From Mesostigma viride (Eukaryota; Streptophyta; Mesostigmatophyceae; Mesostigmatales; Mesostigmataceae): a stretch of DNA of 64,000 nt. Below the pieces are notes generated by a model. The model made no database searches. It was not told the origin of the DNA and saw nothing but the letters and a program-made list of their open reading frames with translations. The stretch lies in the NCBI GenBank assembly GCA_009746045.1, contig RPFO01000164.1:1884509-1948508 (forward strand), read 5' to 3'. Both the position numbers and the translations under genes were made by a program. This document shows positions 36,657 through 63,227 of the stretch, piece by piece. Positions within the stretch are counted from its first letter, which is position 1. Each line of letters starts with the position of its first letter.

Positions 36657-36800
36657 TACGTACATTAAATTAAATTAAATTAAATTATAACATGCCTCCG
36701 TGGGGAGGTCATGTAGCACATATTCCATGATGGATGGGGTGGAGGAAGCCGCGTGGTCGAACTATACTAACGCTAGGCTATCTAGAAAATCCTAACTACA

Positions 36801-38387
36801 CTACTCATCAAAACGCCTCCTCCGCTTGGGGGGAGGTGGCTTGCCCACAGGGTCGGGCGTGTGCGCCTTGACAATCTTCTTCCACCGCGTCTTGTCCTGC
36901 ATGACAGTCCAAAGACGGGAGAGAGAGTGTATGCGGTGCTCAAACTGGGCTGGGACCACTAGGTCGTCCAGCAACATCTGAACGTAGTTGGTGACAGGTT
37001 TCCCTACCCTTTTGGGAATGTCCGCGGGGCCAGGCCAGGTCAGAATATGCCGCCCTGGCTGGCCAAGCCGCTGGGGGCCGGCCAGACCAAGGGTGGTGTC
37101 GACCTGGCTAGTGCGGGCAAGGTGTCCTACAAATGCTATCCTACGCTGCCTAATCTCGTCCGAAACACGAGGCATGCCATGATACAAAGACTCTGATGAC
37201 GGACGCTCGGAAAAACCTACGTTAAGGACCTGCCGGAGCATCCTGTAAACTGTGCCGTCGAGCCGAGCTGCCAGTTTGGGTGGGAGGGTCCACGCCTCGG
37301 CGCCATACGTGAGCACCGTGAGGACGAGGACCTTGAAGAGCATGCGTTTGCGGTGCCCGTCCAGGCCCTTCGAGCGCCAGTAAGGTGTGAGCGAACGGAG
37401 CTTGGCCCAGGCGAGGGCGATGCGGGTGTCCACATCGTCGTCGGTGTCAGGAAGCCAGCTCCCCAACAGCTTGAAGCGGTCGCGGAACGGGACCTCCGTC
37501 CCGTCGAGCAGGCGCGGCAGCGGTGGTTTACTGGAGGCCCCTATCACCATCGCCTCAGTCTTGACACTAATCTCCAACCCCACCGCCCGCGCCTCCAGGC
37601 CCAGGCAGTCCAGCCAGGTCTGAATGTGCTCGGGGCTCTCGATGAGGGTGGTATCATCCGCATAAATCAGGTCGGCAAGGCGGTACCCCGGTCTAACCCC
37701 GCCGTGCTCTTTCACGTTAAGGATGTCCAAGCCTGGCTCGAACCCCTTAAGAGCAGTAAAGCGCGCACGTGCCCGGCGCATGACGTGATCCACGACAATA
37801 ATGAACAGGTATGGGGACAGGACACAACCTTGCCACACCCCGTGGTGAAGGGGGAATGGTGGAGTGGTGCCCTCCGCAGTCCGCACTACTGCCTGTGAGC
37901 CCTCATACAGTCGGCGAATGGCAGCAATAAACGCAGGTGGTACCCGATCCAGAGCTAGGATGGCCCAAAGAGCCTCCCAGAGAACCGTGTCAAAGGCCTT
38001 GATATAGTCAACAAAAATGAAGACCAGCGGCAAACTGTCAGGGGGAAGTCGACGCACCTCCTCCATCAACCGGCGCGCGACAAACACAGCCATGACAGTG
38101 TTACGACCACTACGGAAACCCATCTGAGACTCACCCAGGTGTGGGTCCAGCGCGGCGCGGAGCCTGTGCAGCATCATGCGCATGAAGACCTTCAGCGCGG
38201 CGCTCTGGAGGCAGACACCCCGGTAGTTGCCGGGGTCAGCAGCAGAGCCCTTCTTGTACAGCATGACGCGGATGGCCGTCTGCCACTCAGCAGGCGGAGG
38301 CTCGTCAGAGAGCAGGACACGGTTGCAGAACGCCAGCAGAAGATCCCTAACCGCCAGATCAGGGGTCTTCAGCAGCTCAGCAGAAAG
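36801..38387 (-). pseudogene. LINE ORF2, reverse transcriptase half
   Basis: This is the part of ORF2 downstream of the TIR element. Motifs in order: KKGSAADPGNYRGVCL, GFRSGRNT, FIFVDYIKAFDTV, GVWQGCVLSPYLF and LIYADDTTLIE with the catalytic Asp pair, then a thumb-like region (TYGAEAWTLPPKL). A basic C-terminus (PPPKRRRRFDE) ends it. Reading is open throughout. The nominal start upstream of 38387 lies in the inserted element and is not a real start. Function is element-encoded target-primed reverse transcription by family. Confidence 0.9.
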
Positions 38388-38459
38388 GAGGGGATTCATA
38401 GGTGTTTGCTCAATTTCACAAGTCTTCAAATGAGTAAAAAAAAAATCTTTCAGATCTGA

Positions 38460-40475
38460 GGGTACCTAAAGCTGGACTGTTGCAGGCAGCATGTAGACCA
38501 TGAAAATAGACCACCCACGAAAATTGGGCTCATTCTGAGCTCAAATGGTGACATGTGACAGCATACATGTGCAGTTTTTCGTCATTTCCCCCCTTTACTT
38601 ACATGAAACAAATATGAATACTGGACAAATGAACTCATTTCAGGCTGGATTCTTGCAGGCAGCATCTAGACCATGAAAATAGACCACCCACAAAAATTGG
38701 GCTCATTCTGAGCTCAAATGGTGACATGTGACAGCATACATGTGCAGTTTTTCGTCATTTTCCCCCTTTTCTTACATGAAACAAATATGAATAGTGGACA
38801 AATGAACTCATTTCAGGCTGGATTCTTGCAGGCAGCATGTAGACCATGAAAATAGACCACCCACAAAAATTGGGCTCATTCTGAGCTCAAATGGTGACAT
38901 GTGACAGCATACATGTGCAGTTTTTCGTCATTTTCCCCCTTTTCTTACATGAAACAAATATGAATAGTGGACAAATGAACTCATTTCAGGCTGGATTCTT
39001 GCAGGCAGCATCTAGACCATGAAAATAGACCACCCACAAAAATTGGGCTCATTCTGAGCTCAAATGGTGACATGTGACAGCATACATGTGCAGTTTTTCG
39101 TCATTTTCCCCCTTTTCTGACATGAAACAAATATGAATAGTGAACAAATGAACTCATTTCAGGCTGGATTCTTGCAGGCAGCATGTAGACCATGAAAATA
39201 GACCACCCACAAAAATTGGGCTCATTCTGAGCTCAAATGGTGACATGTGACAGCATACATGTGCAGTTTTTCGTCATTTTCCCCCTTTTCTGACATGAAA
39301 CAAATATGAATAGTGAACAAATGAACTCATTTCAGGCTGGATTCTTGCAAGCAGCATCTAGACCATGAAAATAGACCACCCACAAAAATTGGGCTCATTC
39401 TGAGCTCAAATGGTGACATGTGACAGCATACATGTGCAGTTTTTCGTCATTTTCCCCCTTTTCTGACATGAAACAAATATGAATAGTGAACAAATGAACT
39501 CATATCAGGCTGGATTCTTGCAGGCAGCATTTATACCATGAAAATAGACCACCCACAAAAATTGGGCTCATTATGAGCTCAAATGGTGACATGTGACAGC
39601 ATACATGTGCAGTTTTTCGTCATTTTCCCCCTTTTCTTACATGAAACAAATATGAATAGTGAACAAATGAACTCATTTCAGGCTGGATTCTTGCAAGCAG
39701 CATCTAGACCATGAAAATAGACCACCCACAAAAATTGGGCTCATTCTGAGCTCAAATGGTGACATGTGACAGCATACATGTGCAGTTTTTCGTCATTTTC
39801 CCCCTTTTCTTACATGAAACAAATAGGAATCATGACCAAATGAACTCATATCGAGCTGCCAGGATTCTTGCAAGCAACATTTAAACCATAATACTACACC
39901 ACCTACAAAAATTGGGCTCATTATGAGCTCAAATGGTGACATGTGACAGTATAAATATGCAGTTTTACGCCATTTTCATCGTTTTCTTACACGAAATAAA
40001 TAGGAATCATGACCAAATGAGCTCATATCGAGCTGGATTCTTGCAAGCTACATTTAAACCATAATACTAGACCACCTACAAAAATTGGGCTCATTATGAG
40101 CTCAAATGGTGACATGTGACAGTATAAATATGCAACCTTTTGTCATTTGCACCGGTTTCTTACATGAAACAAATAGGAATCATGAACCAATGAACTCATA
40201 TCCAGCTGGATTCTTGCAAGCTACATTTAAACCATAATACTACACCACCTACAAAAATTGGGCTCATTATGAGCTCAAATGGTGACATGTGACAGTATGA
40301 ATATGCAGTTTTACGCCATTTGCACCGGTTTCTTACATGAAACAAATAGGAATCATGACCAAATGAACTCATATCAAGCTGGATTCTTGCAAGCAACATT
40401 TAAACCATAATACTAGACCACCTACAAAAATTGGGCTCATTCGATCTGAGCTCAAATGGTGACATGTGACAGTAT
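38460..40475 (+). repeat. 173-bp satellite, left arm
   Basis: Units repeat at 173 bases (GAACTCATTTCAGGCTGG at 38631 and 38804, and so on), each with CCACCCACAAAAATTGGGCT and GGTGACATGTGACAGCATAC. Outer units are nearly identical; inner ones near 39.9-40.4 kb are more diverged. Confidence 0.92.
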
Positions 40476-40476
40476 A

Positions 40477-40682
40477 TGAAAAGAGACAACAAACGTGGAC
40501 TGAAGCATTGGCACGCTGAGCCCCGTGCATGTCTGAGACCAGTTGTCTGAAAAGAGACAACAAACGTGGCAGCATGGCACGCCGAGCCCCGTGCATGTCT
40601 GAGACCAGTTGTCTGAAAAGAGACAACAAACGTGGAAGCATGGCACGCCGAGCCCCGTGCATGTCTGAGACCAGTTGTCTGA
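40477..40682. repeat. Three tandem units of about 68 bp
   Basis: TGAAAAGAGACAACAAACGT, GCACGCCGAGCCCCGTGCAT and GTCTGAGACCAGTTGTC recur three times directly inside the left satellite arm. The first unit has a few extra bases. Confidence 0.85.
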
Positions 40683-43374: not shown

Positions 43375-44925
43375 TTGATGCTTGCAAGTTTCCAGCCTGA
43401 CATGATCGATCGAGTTCATTTGGTCGCACAAAAATGTTTTATTCAAGAGAACAGTGGCAATGGCATCAAACTGCATTGTTTTCCTTTCATTTGTCACCTT
43501 TTGAGCTGTAAACAGTCTATTTTGATGGTCTACATGCTGCTTACAAGTTTCCAGCCTGATCTGAGTTCATTTGTTCAATATTCATATTTGTTTCATGTAA
43601 GATAACCGAGAAAATGACAAAAAACTGCACATGTATGCTGTCACGTGTCACCATTTGAGCTCAGAATGAGCCCAATTTTTGTGGGTGGTCTATTTTTATG
43701 GTCTAGATGCTGCCTGCAAGAATCCAGCCTGAAATGAGTTCATTTGTTCACTGTTCATATTTGTTTCATGTAAGAAAAGGGGGAAAATGACGAAAAACTG
43801 CACATGTATGCGGTCAAATGTCACCATCTGAGCTCAGAATGAGCCCAATTTTTGTGGGTGGTCTATTTTCATGGTCTAGATGCTGCCTGCAAGAATCCAG
43901 CCTGATATGAGTTCATTTGTTCACTATTCATATTTGTTTCATGTAAGAAAAGGGGGAAAATGACGAAAAACTGCACATGTATGCGGTCAAATGTCACCAT
44001 TTGAGCTCAGAATGAGCCCAATTTTTGTGGGTGGTCTATTTTCATGGTCTAGATGCTGCCTGCAAGAACCCAGCCTGATATGAGTTCATTTGTTCACTGT
44101 TCATATTTGTTTCATGTAAGAAAAGGGGGAAAATGACGAAAAACTGCACATGTATGCTGTCACATGTCACCATTTGAGCTCAGAATGAGCCCAATTTTTG
44201 TGGGTGGTCTATTTTCATGGTCTAGATGCTGCCTGCAAGAATCCAGCCTGATATGAGTTCATTTGTTCACTATTCATATTTGTTTCATGTAAGAAAAGGG
44301 GGAAAATGACGAAAAACTGCACATGTATGCGGTCAAATGTCACCATTTGAGCTCAGAATGAGCCCAATTTTTGTGGGTGGTCTATTTTCATGGTCTAGAT
44401 GCTGCCTGCAAGAACCCAGCCTGATACGAGTTCATTTGTCCACTGTTCATATTTGTTTCATGTAAGAAAAGGGGGAAAATGACGAAAAACTGCACATGTA
44501 TGCTGTCACATGTCACCATTTGAGCTCAGAATGAGCCCAATTTTTGTGGGTGGTCTATTTTCATGGTATAAATGCTGCCTGCAAGAATCCAGCCTGATAT
44601 GAGTTCATTTGTTCACTATTCATATTTGTTTCATGTAAGAAAAGGGGGAAAATGACGAAAAACTGCACATGTATGCTGTCACATGTCACCATTTGAGCTC
44701 AGAATGAGCCCAATTTTTGTGGGTGGTCTATTTTCATGGTATAAATGCTGCCTGCAAGAATCCAGCCTGATATGAGTTCATTTGTTCACTATTCATATTT
44801 GTTTCATGTAAGAAAAGGGGGAAAATGACGAAAAAACTGCACATGTATGCTGTCACATGTCACCATTTGAGCTCAGAATGAGCCCAATTTTTGTGGGTGG
44901 TCTATTTTCATGGTCTGAAGGCTGG
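43375..44925 (-). repeat. 173-bp satellite, right arm (inverted)
   Basis: Nine units in the orientation opposite to the left arm (AGCCCAATTTTTGTGGGTGG, AAAACTGCACATGTATGC). The innermost units near 43.4 kb are diverged, as at the inner end of the left arm. Together the arms form a long interrupted palindrome. Confidence 0.92.
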
Positions 44926-45024
44926 ATGACCCCTGCTTTATTGACAAATATAAGGATTTAATCACATGTGGAAAAATTGAGTAAAATTTATGAAATTGAG
45001 CAAACACTTATGAATCCCCTCAAG

Positions 45025-46912
45025 GTGGTCGGCACCGACCGCTGCATCGTACCGCAGGCGAGCAAGGGCGCCGTCCAATTCCTCCAAAGTGAAGGGGGGG
45101 ACAACGTCGTCAGTGGCAAGGCGGCCCTCCTGCAAGGCGGGGACTTGGTAGTCCGCGGCCGAGGAGGGGGGCGCCGGTGGCGGCGGGGGTCCGGCGACCC
45201 CGAGGCGGGCGGCCGTCTCGGGGTGCAGCGGCGGGGGGGGGCGCGAGCCCCACCGGTCAAGGAAACATTGTGGGCCAACCAGCGGTCAAGGCTTACCGGC
45301 GCCGTGCCGTCCCCCGTATGCTCCACCGGGGTGCGCTGCCGCCGGCCGCCGAGCCGGTCGAGGTGGTACCACATGTCCTTGCCCTGGTTGCGGGCCTGGC
45401 AGGCCTTGGCATCCGCGATGCACTGGGCCGCCTCCGCGTCCTGAGCGTGCGCGTAGGCCTCCACAAGGGCGGCCTTGAGCGATGGTTTCTGCAGCGGGTC
45501 CCGGTTACGCTTGAGGCGGTGCCGGGCGGCCAAGACCTTGGGGTCCTGGCGGTAGAGCGGGCCGGGGCGGCGGCGGGGCATGACCGGCAGGTGCCGGGCC
45601 GCCAGCAACGGGGCACGGGCCGCAAAGCCCGCAAAAACGGCTGCGTTGGGGGCACCATTGTCCAGCTTGTCGACGTCCGCCCGGGCGTCCAGTGCCGACA
45701 GGTACTTCCGTCGGCACCAGTTCCGCTCGTGCTCGGCGTCCGTCCAGTCCTCAGGATCTCCCTTGACCGGACGTAGAGCAGACCAGTCAGGGCGGACCAC
45801 TGTGGCGCGGCGCGTGGGGACGTGGAACCGGAGCCGAAGGGTCGCGCGCACCAACCGGTGATCAGAGCACACCGTGGGCGTGTCAAACACTCGGGCGTCC
45901 AGAACCGAGGTACACCTGGGCTGCCGTACCACCACATAGTCCAGACAGGCCTGACGGCCGTTAGGGCCACGAAAAGTGACCAAGTCCTGTGAGGGACGTT
46001 GGAATTGACAGTTGACAGCAACCATCCCGCTATCCCGCAAAAAGGCAGAGAAAAGGGGAGTATTGGCGTTAGCTTCCGTGTCAGCAGGCGCAAAGCGACT
46101 GCCAGCAGTGCCCACGGGGAGCGTGGCATTGGCGTCGAGCAGCATAACCAAAAAGTGGCGGGCCGGGGTGACCCTCTCAAGGTCATGCAAAGATTCGAAG
46201 AACTCCTCACGGGCCGAATCAGGTAGACCACTGTGGGGTGCGTAGCCCACCCCCACCGTGAGGTGGTGTTTAGACCGCCCCTCGACAGAGGTGAAATGTG
46301 CTACCATAAGGCGTGGGGTTAGAAACTTAAGCGTGCTGAGGCTAGCAACTGCCAGCGGCGAACACAAAAGACCAACACCACCTTGGCCAGACGTACCGCT
46401 GCCAGCGAAGTAAAACCGCCAGCCACCCGCCAAGCGAGCAGTGCTCACCAGGCCAAGTGGCACCGTGCGGCGGTGTTCCTGGACGCCTAATATAGATACA
46501 CGATGCTCAATGCAAAATGCGACTAGCTCCTCGATCCGGCAGCTATGGTCGTCATCTAGCAACAATTTGTGCGGGTGTTAAAAGTGGCAAGGGCCAAGGA
46601 TGCCTGCTGGCCCACCAGGGGAGAACGACGATGGGTGATGGGGGTGGGTGCGGCGGGGAATGGAGGTGGAGGTGGAACGGAGGGGGGAAGGGAAGCGGTG
46701 GAAATAGTGCTTTTCATCGCATTTATTTTGTCCTGCAGGCGTAGGATGCGAGCCTGCCGCCTGCTCTGGGTATTCGGGGATGCTTGCGCAACGCAGAGGC
46801 GTAGGAAATCTAGCATGCGTTGGGTGTTGCTAATCTTGCTGCTGAGAGCTGTCGTTCTGGCCCGAGATACCGGCACCACCATGTGTCTCAGTCGACTGTT
46901 AGGTCGATGCAT
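45025..46912 (-). pseudogene. LINE ORF2, endonuclease half (frame-broken)
   Basis: Reading from ATG 46912 gives a basic leader ending in SLALATFNTRT, the start of an apurinic-type endonuclease. One frame shift near 46560 leads to DDDHSCRIEEL, then GVQEHRR, GQGGVGLL, LLDANATLP, CLDYVVVRQP and CSDHRLV, the catalytic Asn/Glu/Asp/His motifs of LINE endonucleases. A second shift at a G/C run near 45235 precedes the linker DDVVPPFTLEELDGAL. The reading is then cut by the TIR element. ORF2 starts 75 bases beyond the ORF1 stop. Confidence 0.85.
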
Positions 46913-48162: not shown

Positions 48163-48480
48163 GGCTACGTTTAATAGCACCTAGACGATGGCAGGGGGCG
48201 CAGGCGCACGGCTCACGTGCGTGGTGCCGCCATAACGTGCAGAAAAATAGCGATATCTGCTGGGCAGGCCGCCGGCGATAACTTTCGAAATCCTGGGCGA
48301 TGGCTGCCAAAAATTAGATCAGCGTGTTCGTCATCAAAAAGCGAGTCTGTAGCAATTTACCCGACCAAATTTCATGCCCGGAATCAAAAGTTATGAGCAT
48401 TCTCGGCATCCATAGCTCGGCGCACCGTAAATATATATCGTAGATATATCGCGTTCCATACTTGCGCAAAATACGTACAT

Positions 48481-50293
48481 GGATGGCATTTATGTAATTA
48501 ATGATGAGGATTCAGGCTCCCATGGGGTCATCATGGCTTGTCTACGTACATGGTTGGCATTTATGTAATTAATGAGGAGGATTCAGGCTCCCATGGTGTC
48601 TCCATGGCTGGCCTACGTACATGGATGGCATTTATGTAATTAATGAGGAGGATTTAGGCTCCCATGGTGTCATCATGGCCCGTCTACGTACATGGATGGC
48701 CTTTATGTAAGTAATGATGAGGATTCAGGCTCCCATGGTGTCATCATGGCCCGTCTACGTACATGGATGTCAAGGAATAGTAAATGATGAGGATTCAGGC
48801 TCCCATGGTGTCTCCATGGTCCGTCTACGTACATGAATGGCAAGTATGTAATTAATGATGAGGATTCAGGCTCCCATGGTGTCATCATGGCTGGCCTACG
48901 TACATGAATGGCATTTATGTAATTAATGATGAGGATTCAGGCTCCCATGGTGTCATCATGGCCCGTCTACGTACATGGATGGCATTTTTGTATATAATGA
49001 TGAGGATTCAGGCTCCCATGGGGTCATCATGGCTTGTCTACGTACATGGTTGGCATTTATGTAATTAATGAGGAGGATTCAGGCTCCCATGGTGTCTCCA
49101 TGGCTGGCCTACGTACATGGATGGCCTTTATGTAAGTAATGATGAGGATTCAGGCTCCCATGGTGTCATCATGGCCCGTCTACGTACATGGTTGGCATTT
49201 ATGTAATTAATGAGGAGGATTCAGGCTCCCATGGTGTCATCATGGCCCGTCTACGTACATGGATGTCAAGGAATAGTAAATGATGAGGATTCAGGCTCCC
49301 ATGGTGTCATCATGGCCCGTCTACGTACATGGATGTCAAGGAATAGTAAATGATGAGGATTCAGGCTCCCATGGTGTCTCCATGGCCCGTCTACGTACAT
49401 GAATGGCAAGTATGTAATTAATGATGAGGATTCAGGCTCCCATGGTGTCATCATGGCTGGCCTACGTACATGAATGGCATTTATGTAATTAATGATGAGG
49501 ATTCAGGCTCCCATGGGGTCATCATGGCCCGTCTACGTACATGGATGGCATTTTTGTATATAATGATGAGGATTCAGGCTCCCATGGTGTCATCATGGCT
49601 TGTCTACGTACATGGATGGCATGTATGTAATTAATGATTAGGATTCAGGCTCCCATGGTGTCTCCATGGCCCGTCTACGTACATGAATGGCAAGTATGTA
49701 GGCCGGGCCCACTTCAAATGTTCCGCCGTCCAAGCCAAGTGTGTGACACTTTTTCGCTATTTTCGCAAAAAAAAAATAAAATTTCGCACGAGTTCGCGTG
49801 ATTTTCGCGTGATTTTCGCAAAATTTTCACACATTTTCGCACGATTTCGCACGATTTCGCACAATTTTGCATGATTTCGCACAATTTCGCATGGATTTCA
49901 ACCAAGGGTCGTTTTGGGGAGTGACGTTTGACAAAATTTCGCATGAATTCACACACGTTGTGCACATCAAAATTTTTTACCGTCGACATTTTTCACATGA
50001 AATTTCGCACAATTTCAGCAAATTTCGCACAAATTCGCACGATTTCAGCAAATTTCACACGATTTCAGCAAATTTCGCACAATTTCGCACGATTTCGCAC
50101 GACGAATCACTCTGCAGAGTGACGATCGTCGAAAAAGTCAAAAAAACGACCAAAAGTGTCACACTTTTCGGAACATTTGAAGTGGGCCCGGCCTGTAATT
50201 AATGAGGAGGATTCAGGCTCCCATGGTGTCATCAGGGCCCGTCTACGTACATGGATGGCATGTATGTAGTTAATGATGAGGATTCAGGCTCCC
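48481..50293. repeat. 71-bp satellite array, right part
   Basis: It continues the array interrupted by the LINE, in the same orientation as 34880-36656. It is interrupted by a MITE (49701-50193) and ends where copy C of the ORF1-only family starts near 50294. Confidence 0.92.
49701..50193. mobile_element. 493-bp MITE with 25-bp perfect TIRs
   Basis: Both ends read GGCCGGGCCCACTTCAAATG plus TTCCG (25 bases, perfect). The flanking duplication is TGTA (49697-49700, 50194-50197), restoring the satellite sequence. The interior is built from degenerate TTTCGCACGATTTCGCAC units and has no gene. The identity of its ends suggests recent movement. Confidence 0.88.
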
Positions 50294-51142: not shown

Positions 51143-51615
51143 AGTTAGTCTCCATGCTTTGCTGTAGACTAAGTCTCAAAGGCATTGTGAATACAACGTA
51201 TGAATAAGCCTTGTAAACCTACGTTGGTACGTGAATATAAATACCACGTGGGCTATGCAGATAGGAATGCTAGTCGAGTCGCATACGTTTCCCTAGATAG
51301 GTACTTTGGGTACTGAGGTACGTGACAGATGTCAGTACCCAGTATACGTAGTGTCCTGTCATTGGACGGTACTAGAGTATCCTAGATAGGGACCGTACTG
51401 CAGCGTGCATTGATCTGTGATCGCACGATGCAGTGACTAGACGGCTACCTGTCATCGTGTGGCCTCGGGCCAACGGTCTGCACCCAACGGTCACTGGCGG
51501 CGCAGCCGGTGAGAGGAACGTTGATAAAGGGTAAACCTATTTTCTAATGAACCAAGCAATTCATTGCTCCAAGCTTTCAGTGTTCTCAAGCAATATATCC
51601 CACCGCATTCTAACT
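51143..51615 (+). repeat. Outer element 5' LTR
   Basis: 473 bases, starting AGTTAGTCTCCATG and ending ATTCTAACT. The ends form the inverted repeat AGTTAG/CTAACT in place of the usual TG/CA. Only 18 bases separate it from the ORF A start, so any primer site must be there. Confidence 0.9.
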
Positions 51616-51633
51616 TGAATTTTATTTGCTACC

Positions 51634-52691
51634 ATGGCTATCACGAACAAGAATGTCGCTAAGAAGCTTACCTACAACGAGGATGATGATGGGCAGGATC
51701 GGCGGATGCCCAGAGACAACAACAAGAAGCCGGCTGGCGATGCGGCCATTTCCAAGAAAAAGAAAAAGAACAAAAAGACTTACAATGGTTGCCAGGACGA
51801 GGGGACGGCGGCTGCAAAGCCGACCGACCTACCCCCCTCCCCTGCGAGGCCGGAGGCCGAGACGGCTCCCCCCGGGGAGACCGGCTTACCCTCGACTCCG
51901 GCGGTCGCCCCAGCCGCAACCACGGCTGGCGCGGCCATGGCTGCGGAGACCTCGGTGGTAAACCCCACTGAGGCTCCACAGTCCGGCCCCACGTTGCCAT
52001 CTCTTCGGGAGCGTATGCCCCGTCAGACGGCCTCGGTGGCACCGGACGGGACGATTACCTTTCGTCCCGCCACATCAAACCTTAATGTCCCTTTCGCCCA
52101 GGGACATAACCACATTGAGCTAACGTTTGGGCGACCCTCTGCGTCCCTTCTTCGCAAGAAGAAGGACATGGAGAGTATTAAACTCGCACGGGTGGTGCGA
52201 AAACCTGTGGAACCCATCGCCGGACAACCAATGTCCGACGATGAGGTATCCGACACTGCCAGTCTCCCCGATGGGGAGACTGAGATCAATCTTACCCCAG
52301 CGCTCCTGGCGGTCGAGCAGGCCGCGCTGGTGGCAAATGAAGAACGCCGAGCGCGGCAGCGGGACCGAGAGGTCCGCCGAGAGGCGGCTTTTCGGCTCGC
52401 CGCTAAGCGGCAAGAATATGAAGAGGAAGCCGCCCGTCGCCTGGCTACCCACCAGGCGATGGCGGACGCGTACCGCGAGGCCACCCAGCGGTTACGTGAC
52501 CTCTTAAAAAATGCTGACTATCCCATGGACTATGCGGACAGTCAAGACCTGGCCGAGCTTGCTCGGTCAGCACACTTTAAAACCATGTCCTCCATCACCC
52601 AAGCCAGGGTCACGGAGGCCATCTTGGCCAAACATGGGGTGGTAGCTGAAGAAGCCCCCCCGCTGGAAACCACCAGCAAGAAACCCTCTCC
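51634..52691 (+). CDS. ORF A of the outer element (upstream of Gag, interrupted)
   Basis: ATG 51634 in a strong context (ACCATGG), open for 352 codons to the inner insertion. When the insertion and one copy of its TCTCC duplication are ignored, reading resumes at 57123 and ends at TGA 57208-57210, about 380 residues in all. That TGA overlaps the Gag ATG at 57207 as ATGA. The protein has a Lys-rich patch (SKKKKKNKK, residues 40-48), a Pro/Ala/Thr-rich linker, and an Arg/Glu/Ala-rich probable coiled coil (about residues 230-300). I recognise no domain. It may be an accessory Gag-like or RNA-binding protein translated before Gag by termination and restart. Confidence 0.75.
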
Positions 52692-53134
52692 AGTTAGCCT
52701 CTAGTCGTGGACATAGGCTAAGTACCAGATAGCAATGTGCTATCTGGGGTTTCGCACGTGTAGGCTCGGTCAGAAGTCCCGGCTATATGTGATTCGGCAG
52801 GCTAGACTATTCGATAGCCGAGTCCTGGTGACGGACGCCAGTACCCAAGTAGGATTGGCGGTACGGCGTCGCCAGTACCCACTCGGGACTGACATTGAGG
52901 TGTCGGATGTTGGACTAAGGTCCTGAGAGTCTAGCAGTGGCGTCGCGCCACTCAGGCTGCACCACAGAGCCCAACGGCCACTGTCGGCTGCTCCAGACGT
53001 GGCAGCCAGGCAGAGCGTTGCTTGTCGACAATGCTAAATGCCCTTGTGCACGTTGGGTGCGGGGCTTGTGATTTATTGTAATAAACACATGCGTTAGGCC
53101 ATTGAGCATTGAGAGGTCCACTCGTTTATTAACT
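52692..53134 (+). repeat. Inner element 5' LTR
   Basis: 443 bases, AGTTAGCCTCTAGTC to TTATTAACT; ends AGTTA/TAACT. It contains TTATTGTAATAAAC near 53075, with TGTAA as a possible polyadenylation word. No sequence match with the outer LTR beyond the ends was noticed. Confidence 0.9.
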
Positions 53135-53168
53135 TGAATTAAAGCGCCCAACCCAAAGGGGAATAATT

Positions 53169-56100
53169 GTGGGTGATGTCGTGCATATCGATGGTGAACA
53201 ATATCTGATCCTAAAAGACACATGGTCCAGATTCACTGTCATGGAACCCCTACCTGGAATGGCTAAAGAGCAACTGCGTGCAGCACTTGTGATAGCATTG
53301 CCCAGATTCTACCCAGTTGACACTATACTGCTTGATCAACAGTTTAGCTGTCTGGCTGAGTGTGAAGGATGGGATGCTAATATTGAGATTGCTGGATTGC
53401 AAGATCATGAAGGGCAGGGTGTCATTGAAAGAACCATCAGGTCAGTCAAAACTTTAGTGGCGAAATCCACTGACCTGAAAGCCACATCTGGAAGCTATGC
53501 TGACAGAGCACTGTGGTGCAGTGAAATCTGTGCTACACTTCACCTTAGACCTGTGTTGCATGCACCATGGGGGGAAATCCTTCCCATTGGCTTACAGGCA
53601 GGTGTGTACCCTCCAGAGGTATTAGCTCTGTATAACACAGTAAGAGCTAAAGTGGCTGATAAGCTAGCTGAAAAGGACATAACACACCCCAGAACAGTAT
53701 TCCAACTGGGTGAACAAGTCCTATATTTCAAAGAAACCAAACATGGCAAGACAGGCATGTGGTATGGTCCGTGCACTGTTCTAAGAATGACCAAAAAAGG
53801 AAAAAATATGGATATTCGAAGTTTGGAAACAGGGAGAAAACACAGGGTGAGCAGTCATAGAGTTAAGAAGTATTTCCCTCCTTTGGCAGACGTGCCAGGG
53901 GAAGAGTCCTTGAACATGGATTCCCTCCTTAACTCTGGTGAGCAAGCAGAACCACCCAGCATTCCAACACCAGGAGCTGATGATGGCACTACCACACCCT
54001 CTGTCATTCCTCCACCCCTCAGTGAGGTACGTGTCACCCCACAACCTGGTGTAAGTCCCTCTGGGCAGAGTTCAACCAGGCATGAGGTACCAGAGCAAAA
54101 CAAAGGCAATCCAGCTGAGTTCAAATCCAAGCTAGAAAAAGCCCTGGCAGCTCTGCATAAGGCTCACAAGAGCAAGGCTAAACAAGCCTCAGGTTTGGCC
54201 AAGGTCTCTGCTGTGTGCTCCGATTATAGCCAGGAATCCTGCATCCTAGCTGTGGACACTCAGGCACAGGTCAGTGTGATCAGTGCACAAGCCATTCCTG
54301 GTCTGCAACTTGCACCCTCACCATGGACACAGGTGCAAGATTTTTCAGGCAAAACAACCTTAGATGTGTTGAGTCAAGTAATGATCCCCATACTTGGCAT
54401 CCAGACACCTTTCCAGGTAGTGGAAGGGTACATGGGCAATGCTTTGTTGGGAGAACCCTTTATCTCTTACCCAGGTGTCACCATCACTGCTAGCCAGCTG
54501 CGTGTGACTGGGGTAGGAGCCATTCCCTTGGATCACTACAAGATTCCATTGTCCCAACTGGTTCATGGATTAGATGCCTATATCAAGGCCATTAACATCA
54601 AATATGGGCCAGGTGAAATCCCTGACCTAGAGAAAAAGGTGCACAATCAAAGGCCACACCCGCAGTCCTTTGGGGTTGGAAAGTGGGACTTAGCCATGCA
54701 CTCTCCTCACAACTATGATGCTCTAATCCAACAATGCAAAACACAAAAAGGGTTTCAAAAATGGATCCAAGCCATTAGGCACCAAGCCCGCGAAGAGTGG
54801 GTGCTGCCAAACCCTAAGCATCCTGACTATAAGCCACCTGTCACTCCTGTCTGGGAAATTCCAGAAGGTGCCAAAAAGTTGAGACTCAAGTTTGTGCTAA
54901 AACACAAGGCACAGCCAGTAGGCTCACCTATATATCATGCTAGGCCATGTGTGACAGAATTAAAAGGCATGTCAAAACTGTCCAAGGGTGAACTCTACAC
55001 TCCTGGGCTGCAGCAAACATCCCTCAGGATACTGCTCTCTGTCTTCCTCCACCATCTCAATGCTGGCCAAGATTATGCCTGCAAAGCTACTGATATCAAA
55101 AGGGCTTTCCTTAGAGGGGACCCTGATAAAGCGCAAGATGTGTGGAAGGGTCAGGTCTATGTGGTTCCCACCCCTGCTGCATGGGCACATGATATTGATG
55201 AGCCATATCTACTCCTAAATCTAGGGGTGGAAGGTTTGCAAAGTGCTCCCACTATCTTCAGAAAATCAGCAGAAGAGGTGTTCAAGAAACTTAATGCCAC
55301 TTATGATGATCTGGACCCTTGTCTCTTTGCTGTGCCCACACCCTCTGGCTTGCTCCTGTTTGTGTGGCATGGTGATGACCAACTGATTTGTGGACCAAGA
55401 GCTGAAGTTGACAAGTTCATTCAGCAGGTTCAGCAGTCCTATGAGATTGGAAAGCAGACAGAGCTGGGGCCAGAACCCCTACAGTTCTGTGGCATAATGC
55501 TAGCACTGGAAGAGCAACAGGAACAGTGGGTGTGTACTCTATCCCCGCCTGCCCAGTACTTAGAAGAATGCCTAGAGCTGCTTGATATTCCGTGCATTCC
55601 TGCTCACATGTGTGCTACTGTCAAAGGAAAATTAGGGTGGCTGAGTGCTATCTGTGCACCTCATCTGGCAGTGGTCAGCAGGATTGATGACACAGTATTA
55701 CAAACCATGAAACCTAAGGATCTCCAGAAGCTACTACAGGCTGGACCTTCCCTTGTCATTCATCCACTCAACCTCATGGAAGATATTCACATTAACTGTC
55801 TGATGGACAGCTCCATGGAGAGTAGGGTAATAACAAAAATGGATGCCAGGGAGGCTGGGGTGTTCTTCCTTACCAACAAGGGAGACTATATGTCCATGGT
55901 GTCGTGGTACAGCAGATTGCATCGCAGAAAAGCTGTTGGCAGTAACTCTGCTGAGTGCCGTGCTGTGGTGTCTGCTGTGCAGCATGCTCGATCCCTTCAG
56001 CACATACTAACCTGGTTGCAAACTCAGGCTGGCAGCAAGGCTGATGTGCATGCTCACTTACACACTGACAGTCAGTCAGTCATTAGTTTCCTTAACAAGA

Positions 56101-56303
56101 AATCTGTGACTGCTGCTGTGCATACTGATCTGGACTGGGTGATTTTGAAACAGGAAACAAGCTATTTTTCCAGCTGGCAGCATCTGCCAGACGAGGAGAA
56201 CCTGGCTGACGCATTGACCAAGATTCCGTCATTAGCAGCAACCCAGTACCAGCTTCTGTGTGATGCAATGAATCCCTATCTGTCTAGTCAGACAAATGGA
56301 TGA
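53169..56303 (+). CDS. Inner element Pol: integrase core, protease-like, RT, RNase H
   Basis: The frame opens after a TAA at 53130-53132 with no early ATG (a GTG lies at 53169; the first ATG follows FTV). It spans 1,044 codons uninterrupted. Order: integrase core with Asp in GDVVHIDG, ILLDQQF and Glu in GVIERTIRS; a GPY/F-like module (WYGPCTVLRM); a low-complexity linker; a retropepsin-like domain (LAVDTQAQVSVISAQ, ILGIQTPFQVV, ALLGEPFISYPG); copia-type RT (TDIKRAFLRGDP, FVWHGDDQLICG); RNase H (DSSMESR, AECRAVVSA, HTDSQSV, LADALTK). The N-terminal integrase HHCC and Gag are missing, so it needs a helper. The intact long frame argues for recent insertion. Confidence 0.88.
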   Translation: MGDVVHIDGEQYLILKDTWSRFTVMEPLPGMAKEQLRAALVIALPRFYPVDTILLDQQFSCLAECEGWDANIEIAGLQDHEGQGVIERTIRSVKTLVAKSTDLKATSGSYADRALWCSEICATLHLRPVLHAPWGEILPIGLQAGVYPPEVLALYNTVRAKVADKLAEKDITHPRTVFQLGEQVLYFKETKHGKTGMWYGPCTVLRMTKKGKNMDIRSLETGRKHRVSSHRVKKYFPPLADVPGEESLNMDSLLNSGEQAEPPSIPTPGADDGTTTPSVIPPPLSEVRVTPQPGVSPSGQSSTRHEVPEQNKGNPAEFKSKLEKALAALHKAHKSKAKQASGLAKVSAVCSDYSQESCILAVDTQAQVSVISAQAIPGLQLAPSPWTQVQDFSGKTTLDVLSQVMIPILGIQTPFQVVEGYMGNALLGEPFISYPGVTITASQLRVTGVGAIPLDHYKIPLSQLVHGLDAYIKAINIKYGPGEIPDLEKKVHNQRPHPQSFGVGKWDLAMHSPHNYDALIQQCKTQKGFQKWIQAIRHQAREEWVLPNPKHPDYKPPVTPVWEIPEGAKKLRLKFVLKHKAQPVGSPIYHARPCVTELKGMSKLSKGELYTPGLQQTSLRILLSVFLHHLNAGQDYACKATDIKRAFLRGDPDKAQDVWKGQVYVVPTPAAWAHDIDEPYLLLNLGVEGLQSAPTIFRKSAEEVFKKLNATYDDLDPCLFAVPTPSGLLLFVWHGDDQLICGPRAEVDKFIQQVQQSYEIGKQTELGPEPLQFCGIMLALEEQQEQWVCTLSPPAQYLEECLELLDIPCIPAHMCATVKGKLGWLSAICAPHLAVVSRIDDTVLQTMKPKDLQKLLQAGPSLVIHPLNLMEDIHINCLMDSSMESRVITKMDAREAGVFFLTNKGDYMSMVSWYSRLHRRKAVGSNSAECRAVVSAVQHARSLQHILTWLQTQAGSKADVHAHLHTDSQSVISFLNKKSVTAAVHTDLDWVILKQETSYFSSWQHLPDEENLADALTKIPSLAATQYQLLCDAMNPYLSSQTNG

Positions 56304-56674
56304 TGAAATAGGGCACTCCAGACTAATGGTGCAGACTATGGTCTTTCCCAGCTGGTGGCAACTTGGCAACAAACATAATAATTTCTTGATGTGCCCCCTG
56401 GTTTTTCCATAGCCACTCATCACTCCACTGACTTGTACAAACAGGGGATCCTAGGTTCAGAAACCTCAAAGACACTGTCAGATTTAAAGGCAATGGGGTC
56501 TGTGGGCGCTTTAATTCACAACGTCCATTGTGGTCTGATATGAGTTTTCCTGTACCAATGTCTTATTCATGATATTGCCAAGTACCTGAAAAAAAACAAA
56601 AAGGAATAAAAACTGGAGGTGCAGCACTGATGCCTTAAAAAAAAAAAAAAAAAAAAAAAAAAGAATAAAACTGG

Positions 56675-57117
56675 AGTTAGCCTCTAGTCGTGGACATAGG
56701 CTAAGTACCAGATAGCAATGTGCTATCTGGGGTTTCGCACGTGTAGGCTCGGTCAGAAGTCCCGGCTATATGTGATTCGGCAGGCTAGACTATTCGATAG
56801 CCGAGTCCTGGTGACGGACGCCAGTACCCAAGTAGGATTGGCGGTACGGCGTCGCCAGTACCCACTCGGGACTGACATTGAGGTGTCGGATGTTGGACTA
56901 AGGTCCTGAGAGTCTAGCAGTGGCGTCGCGCCACTCAGGCTGCACCACAGAGCCCAACGGCCACTGTCGGCTGCTCCAGACGTGGCAGCCAGGCAGAGCG
57001 TTGCTTGTCGACAATGCTAAATGCCCTTGTGCACGTTGGGTGCGGGGCTTGTGATTTATTGTAATAAACACATGCGTTAGGCCATTGAGCATTGAGAGGT
57101 CCACTCGTTTATTAACT
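56675..57117 (+). repeat. Inner element 3' LTR
   Basis: 443 bases, apparently identical to 52692-53134. It is preceded by a 26-base A run (about 56637-56662) and AATAAAACTGG. The same ACTGG precedes the outer 3' LTR. Confidence 0.9.
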
Positions 57118-57206
57118 TCTCCCCCCAACCCCTGCAGTACAAGGAGGGACTGCTGGCCCTGGGCGCGAGGAAGGGCAAAGAGGCGGACTGTCCAGTCCGG
57201 CCTGCT

Positions 57207-58639
57207 ATGATCATGGGAGAACCACTCCCTGACATACCCGAGGATGAGGCTGCTTTTCAGGCAGCCCTCCGGGAGCATGAGGTACGCAAGGAGATGAAGC
57301 GTCTCATGCGGGAGGAGGCCAGGAGGAGAGCAGAGGCAGACACCCCTGCCCGCCCCTCCACCGATGGGGCTGGACCCAGTGGGGTTACCCGGACACCCCC
57401 GGGCTCCCCCAGGGCCACCATGACCCCCCCTCCCCCTCCCCCACCACCCCAGGTTCGCCCTGTGGGTTGGGGCCCCCTCCCAAACCAGGGGGGGTGGCCA
57501 GGACCCCAGGAGGCCCTGGGGGGAGGTGCAGAGGTGCCACAGGCACCCAACAGGCCTGCTGAGGCCCCCCCAAGGAGCGGGGATGTCCTGGAACAGCTCG
57601 CCATTCTCCAGGCCCAGCTGGCCTCGTTGCAAGATCAGCAGTTAACAGCTAACCAGCTGCAAACTGTCGAGGGCCTGCGCGCCCTGATGTCGCGGTATGA
57701 GCGGGGGACCATCAACCTGGACCCCACCCGCCTGCAACAAGCAACCGACAGCTTCTTGAGGGCCAACCCCCCTCTCACAGGTGTGTTTAACCCTCATAAA
57801 AAGGAATCCAAAATCAATATTGCTGGCTTGCCTGAGGGTCACACTGTTGAACAAGCTAAGCAATTTGTTTTTGCTTTGGAGTATGGGATGGAAGGTCTTA
57901 ACCTTAGACATCAGTTTAAGGCTCTCAGGGCCTCCTCCACATTCCATCAATCATCTCCTGCAATCAGAGCATTGATTCAAACCTATCAGGAACGTACCCT
58001 GACACCTGAAGCAGCCATTGAACAGTGGCCTACCTTTATCACTGATCTGAAACAGCTAGTGCTTACCAATAACCACATGGAAGCAGTAGAACGTTTCAAC
58101 TGGCTTGCTGCATATAAGGTGAACAAGAATAACCTCTCTGGGGATGCAAAAACATACAGGGTAATGATTGAGAAAGACCTTGAGCTTCTCAAGCTCCAAC
58201 CAAGGTATCTCATCCACACCTGGCTAACAAAAGCTAATTTGCAACCTTCTGTCCTGGCTACCCTGCTTACAGGCCTCAAGTCCCTCTGGGACAACTTCAG
58301 AGCTGCCATGCTCTATATCGAGGAGGCAGTGGACCCCCTGGGTACTGGCAACAACCAGGCCCAGGACCCCAAGGTCCAGGGTGTCCAAGGCCACAAACGC
58401 AAGGGGCAGGCCAGCCAGGGGGGGGCACCCAAGACCCACAAGTCCTCCCACCAAGGGGGCAGTGGCTCTCAGGGGCGTGGCAACACGTGGCACCGTGTGC
58501 CCCTGCATGGCAACCCCAACAACAACAACAACAACAACAACAACAGGTCCCAGCAGGGCAACAATAACAACAGGTCCCAACAGGGCCAAAACAACAACAA
58601 CAACAGGTCCCAGCAGGGCCAGAACCGGTCCCAGCAGGG

Positions 58640-58670
<31 letters not shown>

Positions 58671-58697
58671 CAGCCTGGCAACCCTGGGGGTCCATAA
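57207..58697 (+). CDS. Outer element Gag
   Basis: ATG 57207 overlaps the ORF A stop (ATGA); 496 codons. A charged N-terminal helix (EVRKEMKRLMREEARRRAEA) leads to a Pro/Gly-rich linker with eight consecutive Pro codons. A helical capsid-like region spans about residues 130-370 (LEQLAILQAQLASLQDQQL ... HTWLTKANLQPSVLATLLTG). The C-terminus is basic, then Asn/Gln-rich from AAC repeats. The stop at 58695 directly precedes the zinc knuckle, which is in the Pol frame, so nucleocapsid is made only with a -1 frame change or readthrough. Role: particle formation and RNA packaging, by family. Confidence 0.88.
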
Positions 58698-58699
58698 GG

Positions 58700-61655
58700 T
58701 GCCTGAGGTGCTTCCAACGAGGGCACGCACGGCACAACTGCCCCAACAACGACTCCCTGGCCAACGGGGTGGATCTCTGCCCGGGCTGCTGGCACGCACG
58801 TCATCCCCTGGGGCCTCCAGGCAGCCGTTGCAACAGGCCTCGCTACCCAAATCAATGTGAGTTCACTCACCTTATGTACTCTGAGGATGATGATCTCATT
58901 ACCATTGGGGATGGCAACCAGGGCATAATTGATTTTGAGGCAGCAACCTTACTGTCCTCCCAACACCCTGTTCTGGAACCTTACATAAAAGCACTAACCC
59001 CTACTGTTGACAACTCCATAGATATCAAGGAGCTTGCTCATCAGCTGCACCTAGCCATGGGTCATGAAACAGTGGCTGAGGAACTGGCCAGACGGCTGGG
59101 GGGTAGTAGCATGGGAAAACAACTCAGGAATGCAGTAAAACTGGCTAGACAACACTGTCAAGAATGTCAGTTCAATAGCCCCAAACCTCAAAAATGGCAT
59201 ACTGCAACTCCTTCCACCAATAGGGGCATGATAGTGGGGGATGTGATGCACATCAACAAAGATGTCCAACCCTACCTGATCCTAAAAGACTCATGGTCCA
59301 GGTTCACAGTAATGGAACCCCTACCTGGCATGTCTGCAGGGCAGCTACGTGTTGCACTCATGATTGCTTTACCCAGATTCTACCCAGTTGACAGAATTTT
59401 GCTTGATCAACAATTTTCTTGTCTGACTGACCTGGAAGGGTGTGAAGCAATAGAGATTGCTGGGCTGGAAGATCATGAGGGTCAGGGGGTCATTGAAAGA
59501 ACCATCAGATCTGTCAAAACCCTACTAGCCAAAAATCCTTCCAAGGATGCTACTTCAGGGGTCTATTGTGACAGGGCACTCTGGTGTCATGAAATGTGCA
59601 CAACCCTAAACATGAGACCTGTCTTGCATGCCACGTGGGGTGAAGTAATCCCAGCAGGCCTGCAGGCAGGTGTATATCCCCCAGAGGTGATAGCACTGTA
59701 CAACACTGCACGTGCACAAACCTCAGCAAAACTGGCAGAAAAAGATAAAACCCATTCCAGGCCAGTATTCCAAAAAGGTGATCAAGTTCTCTATTACAAG
59801 GAAAACAGCTTTGGTAAGGTTGGAACTTGGCTAGGTCCAGTTACCATCCGTGGATTTACCAAAAACAGCAAGACCGTGGAGGTCAAGCACAATATCAATG
59901 GGAAGCGTCACAGGGTGAGCTGTCATAGAATTAAGAAGTATTATTCTCCCATGGCAGACGTGCCTGGGGAAGAGTCTTTAAGCATGGACTCACTACTTCT
60001 ATCTGGCAACTCCAGCATGCCCAGCAGTAGCTCTGAGCCACCAATTACTGCTGTTGACAGCACCACAGCACCCTCTGTGAACCCTTCCACCCTCAGTGAA
60101 GCCAGGCCCACTTCACAACCTGGGGATTGCTTAACCAGGCACGAGGTAGCTGGGTTGGAAGCATTAGCTCAGCCCCAAGGCACCAAATTGTCTGCCAACC
60201 CTCCCGCTCTGAGGTCAAGATTGGCAGTCGCCTTGCAAGCATTACACAGGTCACATAAGCAACAAGCTGCTGTGGCCGCAGGGTTGGCAAAAGTCTCAGC
60301 TGTGTGCACTAGTCAGGACCCCTGGACCCTGGCAATAGACACTCAGGCACAGGTCAGTGTGATCAGTGCACAAGCCATCCCTGGTCTTGAGATTGCACCT
60401 TCATTTTGGGCACGGGTGCAGGATTTCTCAGGCCAAAGCTCACTGGATGTAGTGGGACAAGTGATGCTCCCTATACTTGGTATTCAGACACCCTTCCAGG
60501 TGGTGGAGGGGTACTCTGGTAACACCTTGTTGGGGGAACCTTTTGTATCCTATCCTGGGGTGCTTATCTCAGCTAATGAGCTCAGTGTCACAGGGGTGGG
60601 TGCAGTTCCTCTGGACCACTTTAAAATCCCTCTCTCCAGTATTGTCCCTGGTATGGATGCTGTCATCAAGGCAGTCAACACTCAGTATGCACCAGGGGAG
60701 ATCCCTGATCTGGACAAGTTAGTGCACAGCCAGTTCCTCCATCCCTCAGCCTTTGGGCTGGGTAAGTGGGACATAGCCATGCACTCACCCCACCAAATCT
60801 CCCACGTCATACAAGAATGCAAAACACAAAAAGGGTTTACCAAGTGGCTGATGGCCATTGTCCACCAAGCCAGGCAGGAATGGGTCCTGCCCAACCCCAA
60901 AAACCCTCAATACAAACCGCCTGTCACCCCTTCATGGGACGTGCCAGAGGGAGCCAAAAAGCTCAGATTAAAATTTGTTCTCAAACAAAAACCACAAAAA
61001 GTGGGCTCCCCAATCTTCCATGCCAGACCATGTGTCACAGAATTAAAGGGGACCTCCACACTGCCAAAAGGGGAAACATACACACCTGGGCTGCAACAAA
61101 CCTCACTCAGGATCATGCTCTCCCTCTTCCTCCACAACCTCAATGCAGGCCAAGACTATGTCTGCAAAGCCACTGATATTAAAAGGGCCTTCCTCAGGGG
61201 GGACCCAGAAAAGGCTGAATCTGTGTGGAAAGGGAAGGTGTACGTGGTAGACACCCCAGCTGTGTGGAAACCTTATATTGATGAGCCCCACCTTATCATC
61301 AACATTGGGGTGGAAGGGCTTGTCAGTGCCCCAAAAATTTTCAGAGACTCAGCAGAGGAAGTATTCAAAAAGCTCAAGGCCACGTATGATGACCTGGACC
61401 CATGCTTTTTTGTTGTACCCACCCCCTCTGGACTGCTGTTCTTTGTGTGGCATGGAGATGACCAACTCATTTGTGGGCCTAGAGCTGAGGTGGAAACCTT
61501 TATTCAGCAGGTCCAGGAATCATATGAGATTGGCAAACAGGTGGAATTGAGCACAACCCCCATCCAGTTCTGTGGCATCATGTTGCAGCTGCATAGGCAG
61601 CCAGATCAGTGGGTCTGCTCTCTCTCCCTCCTGCAGAATATATCCAAGATTGTCT
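58700..61655 (+). CDS. Outer element Pol, main frame: zinc knuckle-IN-PR-RT
   Basis: Begins with a CCHC knuckle (CLRCFQRGHARHNC, CX2CX4HX4C) in the -1 frame relative to Gag. Then the integrase zinc-binding site (HLAMGH...CQEC), core (Asp in GDVMHI, ILLDQQF; Glu in GVIERTIRS) and a GPY/F-like tail (TWLGPVTIRGF). A linker of about 150 residues precedes the retropepsin-like domain (LAIDTQAQVSVISAQ; TLLGEPFVSYPG), then RT (TDIKRAFLRGDP; FVWHGDDQLICG). The frame is lost near 61632 in a C run, where one base is missing relative to the inner element, giving a stop at 61653. RNase H continues in the next frame. In canonical copia the protease precedes the integrase; here it follows it. Confidence 0.88.
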
Positions 61656-62382
61656 AGATCTGCTGCAGGACAACTACCTCCCCTTACATATGTGTGCCAC
61701 TGTTCAGGGCAAACTGGGGTGGTGGTCAGCCATCTGTGGGGCTCCCTTAGCTGTCATCAGCAGGGTCACCCATGATGTTCTAGTCAAGATCAAATGCAGT
61801 CACATCAGGAAGTTGGTCAATGACTGTCCCCCCCTCATCCTCCATGGCCTGAATCTGATGGAAGACATCCACATCCAATGTGTCATGGACAGCTCCATGG
61901 AGAGCAGAACAATCAATCAGATGGGGGCACGGGAATCAGGGCTGTTTTTTCTCACCAACAGGTCAGATTACATGTCCCTCACTTCCTGGTACAGCAGGCT
62001 ACACCGCAGAAAACCTGGCAGCAGCAACTCAGCTGAATGTCGTGCTGTGGTGTCTGCTGCATTGCATGCTCGTTCCCTGCAGCACATGCTCACCTGGCTA
62101 CAAACCCAGGCAGGCAGCACATGCAATGTCATCTCACATCTCTATACTGACAGCCAATCTGTGATCAGTTTTCTAACCAAGAAATCTGTCTCTGCTGCTG
62201 TCCACACTGACTTGGATTGGGTGATCCTCAAACAGGAGGCCACCTATTTTTCCAGCTGGACTCATGTGGATGATGAGGACAACCCAGCAGACGCTCTCAC
62301 GAAGCTGCGGGATGCTGCTGGCCAACAGTACCAGCTCCTCTTTCAGAACATGAACCCCTATGATATCAGAGTCAGTGTTTGA
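61633..62382 (+). CDS. Outer element Pol, RNase H part (after frame break)
   Basis: Reading resumes one frame over (AEYIQDCLDLL) and runs to TGA 62380. Motifs: VQGKLGWWSAI (RT-RH connection), DSSMESRT, AECRAVVSAALHARS, YTDSQSVISFL and NPADALTK, as in copia RNase H. About 250 residues. One restored base would join it to the upstream Pol frame. Confidence 0.88.
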   Translation, partial: AEYIQDCLDLLQDNYLPLHMCATVQGKLGWWSAICGAPLAVISRVTHDVLVKIKCSHIRKLVNDCPPLILHGLNLMEDIHIQCVMDSSMESRTINQMGARESGLFFLTNRSDYMSLTSWYSRLHRRKPGSSNSAECRAVVSAALHARSLQHMLTWLQTQAGSTCNVISHLYTDSQSVISFLTKKSVSAAVHTDLDWVILKQEATYFSSWTHVDDEDNPADALTKLRDAAGQQYQLLFQNMNPYDIRVSV

Positions 62383-62756
62383 ATAAATGACTGGCCATAG
62401 CACAGTACACAACCACCACACCCCCTTACCACAGCGATAGCTGCTGGGCGCCATAAAATTCAACACATTCGTTGTGGGGTGTGAGTGCTGGCTAGGTCAG
62501 ATTTGTATCCATTTGCAGCTTGAGGACACAAGCTTTGTATCCATTTACTTAATGTGTGCTTCAGTAACTGGCCAAACCAGCCAGCTGTGTACACCTTATT
62601 TAATGTGCAATATAACACCTGGCCAGAACAGCCAGCTGTAACCAACCTGGCTCAACCAGCCATGTCTCTTTTGTACCCCTAATCAACTTAAAAACAATAA
62701 CAATAATGTTGGGGGTGCAGACCTGCATTAAGAAATAAATAATAAAACAATACTGG
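62383..62756 (+). other. Outer element 3' non-coding leader to the LTR
   Basis: No open frame. It contains repeated CCAGCTGTGTACACC / CCAGCTGTAACCAACC blocks (GGCCAAACCAGCCAGCTGT and GGCCAGAACAGCCAGCTGT) and an A-rich stretch with AATAATGTTGGGGGTGCAG before ACTGG and the LTR. No classical polypurine tract. Confidence 0.6.
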
Positions 62757-63227
62757 AGTTAGTCTCCATGCTTTGCTGTAGACTAAGTCTCAAAGGCATT
62801 GTGAATACAACGTATGAATAAGCCTTGTAAACCTACGTTGGTATGTGAATATAAATACCACGTGGGCTATGCAGATAGGAATGCTAGTCGAGTCGCATAC
62901 GTTTCCCTAGATAGGTACTTTGGGTACTGAGGTACGTGACAGATGTCAGTACCCAGTATACGTAGTGTCCTGTCATTGGACGGTACTAGAGTATCCTAGA
63001 TAGGGACCGTACTGCAGCGTGCATTGATTTGTGATCGCACGATGCAGTGACTAGACGCTACCTGTCATCGTGTGGCCTCGGGCCAACGGTCTGCACCCAA
63101 CGGTCACTGGCGGCGCAGCCGGTGAGAGGAACGTTGATAAAGGGTAAACCTATTTTCTAATGAACCAAGCAATTCATTGCTCCAAGCTTCAGTGTTCTCA
63201 AGCAATATATCCCACCGCATTCTAACT
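62757..63227 (+). repeat. Outer element 3' LTR
   Basis: 471 bases, AGTTAGTCTCC to TTCTAACT. Differences from the 5' LTR seen by eye: C to T near the TACGTGAATAT site, C to T in GATCTGTGATC, and two one-base gaps (GACGGC/GACGC; GCTTTC/GCTTC). Confidence 0.9.

Follow-up and report, generated by a model that had tools for sequence, protein, structure and literature searches.

The order of the Pol domains, i.e. protease (PR), integrase (IN), reverse transcriptase (RT), and RNase H (RH), is a defining character of the superfamilies of LTR retrotransposons. Ty1/copia elements are ordered PR-IN-RT-RH and Ty3/gypsy elements PR-RT-RH-IN, and the Gmr1-like elements of Ty3/gypsy have a Copia-like order, PR-IN-RT-RH. 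Retropepsins carry D-[ST]-G(-A) at their active site, and the usual D-E spacing of the integrase is 35 residues. In the accessible part of a survey of 80 green-plant species, Copia elements are described as normally having PR before IN, and elements with an unexpected order were always removed as likely mispredictions (PMC6317226). Therefore, a lineage with the order IN-PR-RT-RH could have been filtered out there. In the literature we searched by titles and abstract openings, with few subscription papers covered, no element with the order IN-PR-RT was found.

Here, we analyzed a window of 64,000 nucleotides (the whole stretch of Mesostigma viride DNA studied), in which positions 51143-63227 consist of two LTR elements, one nested inside the other. 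The outer element is interrupted in its first coding part by the inner one. The features, all on the plus strand, are as follows.

51143..51615, +, outer 5' LTR, 473 bp, with AGTTAG...CTAACT termini and the 5-bp flanking repeat CCACC
51634..52691, +, first coding part of the outer element, from the ATG up to the inner insertion, Gag-like by position only
52692..57117, +, inner element, with LTRs at 52692-53134 and 56675-57117 and the 5-bp repeat TCTCC
53133..56303, +, inner pol frame, 1056 aa, with IN core, retropepsin-like domain, RT, and RNase H
about 54204-54542, +, inner retropepsin-like domain, with the D-T-Q-A Asp at 54255 and LLGEPF at 54444
57118..58697, +, outer Gag-like frame 3' of the inner insertion, an open reading frame
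58568-61657, +, outer pol frame, running from CCHC through IN and the PR-like domain to RT
58700..58741, +, CCHC zinc knuckle (CLRCFQRGHARHNC) in the pol frame, zf-CCHC_3 below cut-off
59048..59167, +, integrase HHCC site (H-X4-H ... C-X2-C), by motif reading
59240..59497, +, integrase catalytic D, D, E (GDVM; LLDQQF; GVIERTI), by motif reading
59762..59947, +, C-terminal part of the integrase (GTWLGPVTI, HRVSCHRIKKYY), by reading
60281..60637, +, outer retropepsin-like domain, with the D-T-Q-A Asp at 60338 and LLGEPFV at 60527
60962..61654, +, Copia-type RT, RVT_2 E 7.2e-5 and below the curated cut-off, HGDD at 61451
61597..62382, +, RNase H part in a second frame, by motif, without a Pfam match
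62757..63227, +, outer 3' LTR, 471 bp, differing from the 5' LTR by two substitutions and two 1-base indels

The two LTRs of the inner element (443 bp each) are identical, and the outer and inner pol share 69.5% identity across 812 residues. No Pfam family was matched by the first outer coding part (51634..52691). The outer copy is frame-broken near its 3' part, with the RNase H in a second frame. A run of A occupies 56637-56662, just upstream of the inner 3' LTR.

The first-pass annotation, made from the letters alone, had claimed that the zinc knuckle of the outer pol is followed by the HHCC site without any protease between them, and that a domain extending from DTQAQVSVIS to LLGEPFVSYPG lies between the integrase tail and RT. 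Both claims were borne out. The first His of the HHCC site is 102 residues past the CCHC, no D[ST]G occurs in the frame, and the domain was confirmed at its place, separated from the integrase tail by a Pro/Ser-rich linker. When three frames of the outer element were read upstream of the IN core, the sole match to a hydrophobic-D[ST]G pattern was in a stop-rich frame. D[ST]G was also absent from all six frames scanned, namely those of the outer element and of its relatives P0005, L025, L024, P0003, and L030. The integrase spacing from D to E is 29-30 residues in the same six frames, with 29 residues separating the second D from the E in the outer copy (59405-59497). The integrase and RNase H had no Pfam match in the frames of the window, both being assigned from motifs; rve gave only weak matches, with pieces of P0003 (E 0.02) and L030 (E 0.056).

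The inner element had been said to show the same order. This stood for the core, IN-PR-like-RT-RH, and failed for gag, knuckle, and HHCC, which are missing in this copy; only the core is visible because the frame opens within the IN core, immediately downstream of the 5' LTR. Searching the 440-Mb assembly containing the window with the inner pol gave at least 45 matches, including the inner element itself. Among the 45 listed, open frames of 2018 aa (7/45), 1335 aa (12/45), and 888 aa (10/45) recur, and two matches are at about 70% identity. Only the inner element and one other of these matches, C164, begin at query residue 1, and C164, on a second contig, has the same flanks as the inner element, i.e. 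one locus was assembled twice.

Nine stretches of the genome were retrieved. Two of them, L021 and L022, have a frame of 2018 aa directly 3' of a 443-bp LTR, with the CCHC at the same place and DTQAQ. We read this frame in full for L021 (its protein being P0005), where the CCHC is at residue 803, the first His of HHCC at 917, the DTQA Asp at 1337, and LLGEPFI at 1400, followed by RT and RNase H; 30 residues lie from D2 to E. P0005 is thus a full-length relative with Gag-CCHC-IN-PRlike-RT-RH in a single open frame of 2018 aa without D[ST]G, a clear outcome for the proposal that such relatives would lack a true protease between Gag and integrase. Since sister copies carry the whole order, the inner element lost its gag, knuckle, and HHCC by an internal deletion. 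In other copies, Gag and pol are in separate frames, or the integrase part is broken. The LTR pairs differ by 0 to 2 positions in the six elements compared, and this near-identity, together with the many near-identical open copies, suggests recent activity, which would make the polyprotein processing testable. In L023, internal-type sequence (TGAATTAAAGTC) continues past the 3' LTR at 9005-9447, which points to a tandem array of LTR, internal part, and LTR.

More distant relatives came from a protein search with the RT-RH part of the inner pol, which recovered four relatives among 7991 candidates (P0001, P0002, P0003, and P0004). The whole inner pol as the query found none among 7994 candidates, P0003 found no relative beyond itself among 7978, and the phage records and viral contigs searched contained no relative. 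P0001, P0002, and P0004 bear the EukProt label Mesvir1 (Mesostigma viride), and P0003 is encoded on an ENA contig of 6224 bp. Compared with the inner pol, P0001 and P0002, whose available sequences are without the IN part, are 38-41% identical, and P0003 is 32-35% identical. In P0003, the Pfam order is rve (214-265), gag-asp_proteas (557-628), and RVT_2 (751-923), all weak and sub-threshold. P0003 also had 38 scored matches in the genome of the window at 63-64% identity, every one of them in a 1196-aa open frame. One of these, L030, was read for motifs and follows the order HHCC (with C-X-C), D-D-E, DTNA, ILGQNFL, RT, and RNase H, albeit with a sub-threshold Agenet match as the only Pfam result for its whole frame.

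Upstream of HHCC, L030 and P0003 are only 27-32% alike, as opposed to 52-63% around the PR-like part, and this low likeness speaks against a domain there. L030 (4130-7989) and a second copy, L031 (4072-7927), share only 3860 bp, equal to pol plus about 255 bp. An LTR was sought in both 9.8-kb stretches and found in neither. A Gag-like frame with a CCHC sits immediately 5' of the L030 copy; the L031 copy is without such a frame. About 3.4 kb upstream of its P0003-type copy, L031 also has a minus-strand frame with VDSGAASSFVS (114-677), which from its motif we read as a classical retropepsin-type site from a different element.

Taken together, the outer element, P0005, L025, P0003, and L030 all have the PR-like domain between IN and RT, and the gap from CCHC to HHCC is 100-102 residues in the three sequences showing both sites, two of which share one family. 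Three subfamilies with pairwise identity of about 29 to 70%, the third being that of P0003, have the same order. Together with purifying selection and the long open frames present at many loci, this shared order exceeds chance. RVT_2 was matched above the curated cut-off by the inner pol (E 5.3e-9) and P0005 (E 1.3e-8), and below it by the outer pol (7.2e-5), L025 and L024 (1.2e-4 each), and P0003 (0.014); L030, P0001, and P0002 had no match in the RVT_2 search.

An ordinary Copia element with a protease overlooked upstream of IN, a chimera, or an assembly error is hardly credible against these observations, which already contradict it. The Copia-type RT of the inner family and the normal position of PR ahead of IN, as given in the accessible part of the survey (PMC6317226), would speak for an ordinary Copia element. 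However, the whole order is found within one open frame of 2018 aa, the 100-102 residues between CCHC and HHCC lack D[ST]G in all three sequences, and the likeness of L030 and P0003 is concentrated around the PR-like part rather than before HHCC. The many loci on different contigs speak against a chimera or assembly error.

We next consider the fold of the domain. PF13975 gave sub-threshold matches in four of six trimmed members, although the matching members are not independent. Six Pfam families matched any member, and four of these are aspartic-protease families, with a common register shown for PF13975 and PF13650 only. Longer pieces of the outer, L030, and P0001 domains had no Pfam match, and the NCBIfam and PHROGs searches yielded nothing relevant. 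The first structure model of the domain was too poor (pLDDT 42.5); 37 of its 50 listed Foldseek matches were retropepsins, all with E >=0.5, and the other 13 were unrelated. For a later model of moderate confidence, the 50 Foldseek matches listed included only retropepsins, each weak, and a second examination of the listed matches again identified retropepsins only. An unrelated beta-rich linker domain carrying DTxA by chance would accord with the moderate model confidence, with all family matches falling under curated cut-offs, and with the sequence search of solved structures (PDB), which found neither a retropepsin nor an RT. Nevertheless, we regard such a domain as improbable, given the predominance of aspartic-protease families and the listed Foldseek matches. 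The sub-threshold PF13975 matches and those of Foldseek favor a retropepsin weakly, and the domain between IN and RT probably adopts the retropepsin fold.

Whether this domain could be catalytic turns on a point absent from the first-pass annotation. In all five sequences covering the site, another residue takes the place of the DTG Gly, namely Q in the inner and outer elements, N in P0003 and L030, and M in P0001. Thus, the Mesostigma viride proteins have DTMA (P0001) and DTNA (P0003) against DTQA in the window, and none of the three follows the active-site motif D-[ST]-G-A. Catalysis is putative because of this replacement. Either the DTG triad may tolerate a change of Gly in this fold, or the domain may be a pseudoprotease. 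In the latter case, a retropepsin fold without catalysis would serve as a structural or dimerization module, and a host protease or none would process the polyprotein. The lack of D[ST]G from the six scanned frames also fits with lost catalysis, which we nonetheless consider rather unlikely. The Asp, the Thr, and the Ala following the variable residue are kept in five of five sequences, whereas one would expect the Asp to disappear from a dead site, and the dN/dS of the domain (about 0.11) is close to that of RT, indicating purifying selection. Because Asp and Thr are invariant and the constraint is strong, the sequences lead us to favor, with fair but limited conviction, a putative protease activity over a pseudoprotease. 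With its D-T-x-A site, the lineage is a natural test case for the extent to which a retropepsin requires the DTG triad.

We therefore lean toward an LTR lineage with a Copia-like RT and the order Gag-CCHC-integrase-retropepsin-like-RT-RNase H, in which the domain is the element's own putative protease. The distinct lineage proposed at the outset is supported, with its retropepsin-like domain between IN and RT, and the RT of the inner family matches RVT_2. We infer that the domain is the element's own protease; the earlier statement that polyprotein cleavage must work differently is likewise an inference. In the proposed mechanism, the retropepsin-like domain would be brought together as a homodimer within the Gag-Pol particle during its assembly, and the conserved Asp in D-T-(Q/N/M)-A would be the catalyst. 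The protease domain would first free itself from the Pro/Ser-rich linkers and next cut Gag, IN, and RT-RH apart. The copying route would be the one usual for LTR elements, and the integrase would generate 5-bp target duplications from AG..CT ends. The order IN-PR-RT-RH suggests that the position of the protease with respect to the integrase is not fixed.

The lineage resembles Ty1/copia (Pseudoviridae) in the RVT_2 RT of the inner family, the integrase before RT-RH, the CCHC, the LTR pair, and the 5-bp target repeats. It differs in that the PR-like domain follows IN rather than preceding it, the active-site Gly is replaced, the LTR ends are AG..CT instead of TG..CA, the D-E spacing is 29-30, and IN has a weak or no Pfam match. 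With Ty3/gypsy (Metaviridae), it shares a PR-like domain directly before RT-RH, whose best Pfam match is gag-asp_proteas, a Gypsy-side model, and the W.GP motif of the IN tail is, by reading, reminiscent of GPY/F. Unlike in Ty3/gypsy, IN precedes PR-RT-RH and no RVT_1 match was found. Judged by RVT_2 and order alone, the lineage would be a Copia-RT variant and not a strict Copia member, because its RT is Copia-like and its order is not that of Copia. As far as the accessible part of its description goes, Troyka is likewise a superfamily-level LTR lineage with non-TG..CA termini, albeit with CG..CG ends, 3-bp repeats, and the Gypsy domain order (PMC12440569). A broader reading, which we put forward only tentatively, is a deep separate LTR lineage, at least across streptophyte-type algae, with a third pol order (IN-PR-RT-RH), a self-processing D-T-x-A protease, AG..CT ends, and a short-spaced D-D-E.

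Every LTR read to both termini runs AGTTAG...TAACT. Non-TG..CA ends occur in some plant LTR families (PMC5659011), and AG..CT is not named among such termini in the accessible parts of PMC5659011 and PMC12440569. We compared the flanks of 11 elements, six of which have an end that is cut, missing, not aligned to the last base, or followed by internal sequence. All five elements with both flanks (the outer and inner elements of the window, L025, L026, and L028) are flanked by 5-bp repeats, L026 counting least because its 5' LTR is partial and its flank is a GC-repeat. Paired LTRs and a target duplication of fixed length identify these as LTR retrotransposons. The bases 3' of the 5' LTR are TGAATT, unlike a tRNA primer site, and by reading no tRNA-type TGG start follows the LTR. 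Neither window LTR contains a complement of at least 8 post-LTR bases as for self-priming, and the dinoflagellate spliced-leader pattern does not occur in the window.

Elsewhere in the window, the minus strand carries RVT_1 frames (E 4.8e-24) at 36801-38465 and 44988-46577, with Exo_endo_phos below cut-off, which by these matches appear to be remains of LINE-like elements. Arrays of tandem units, about 71 and 173 bp long, occupy 34893-36760, 38471-40504, 43515-44924, and 48347-49637.
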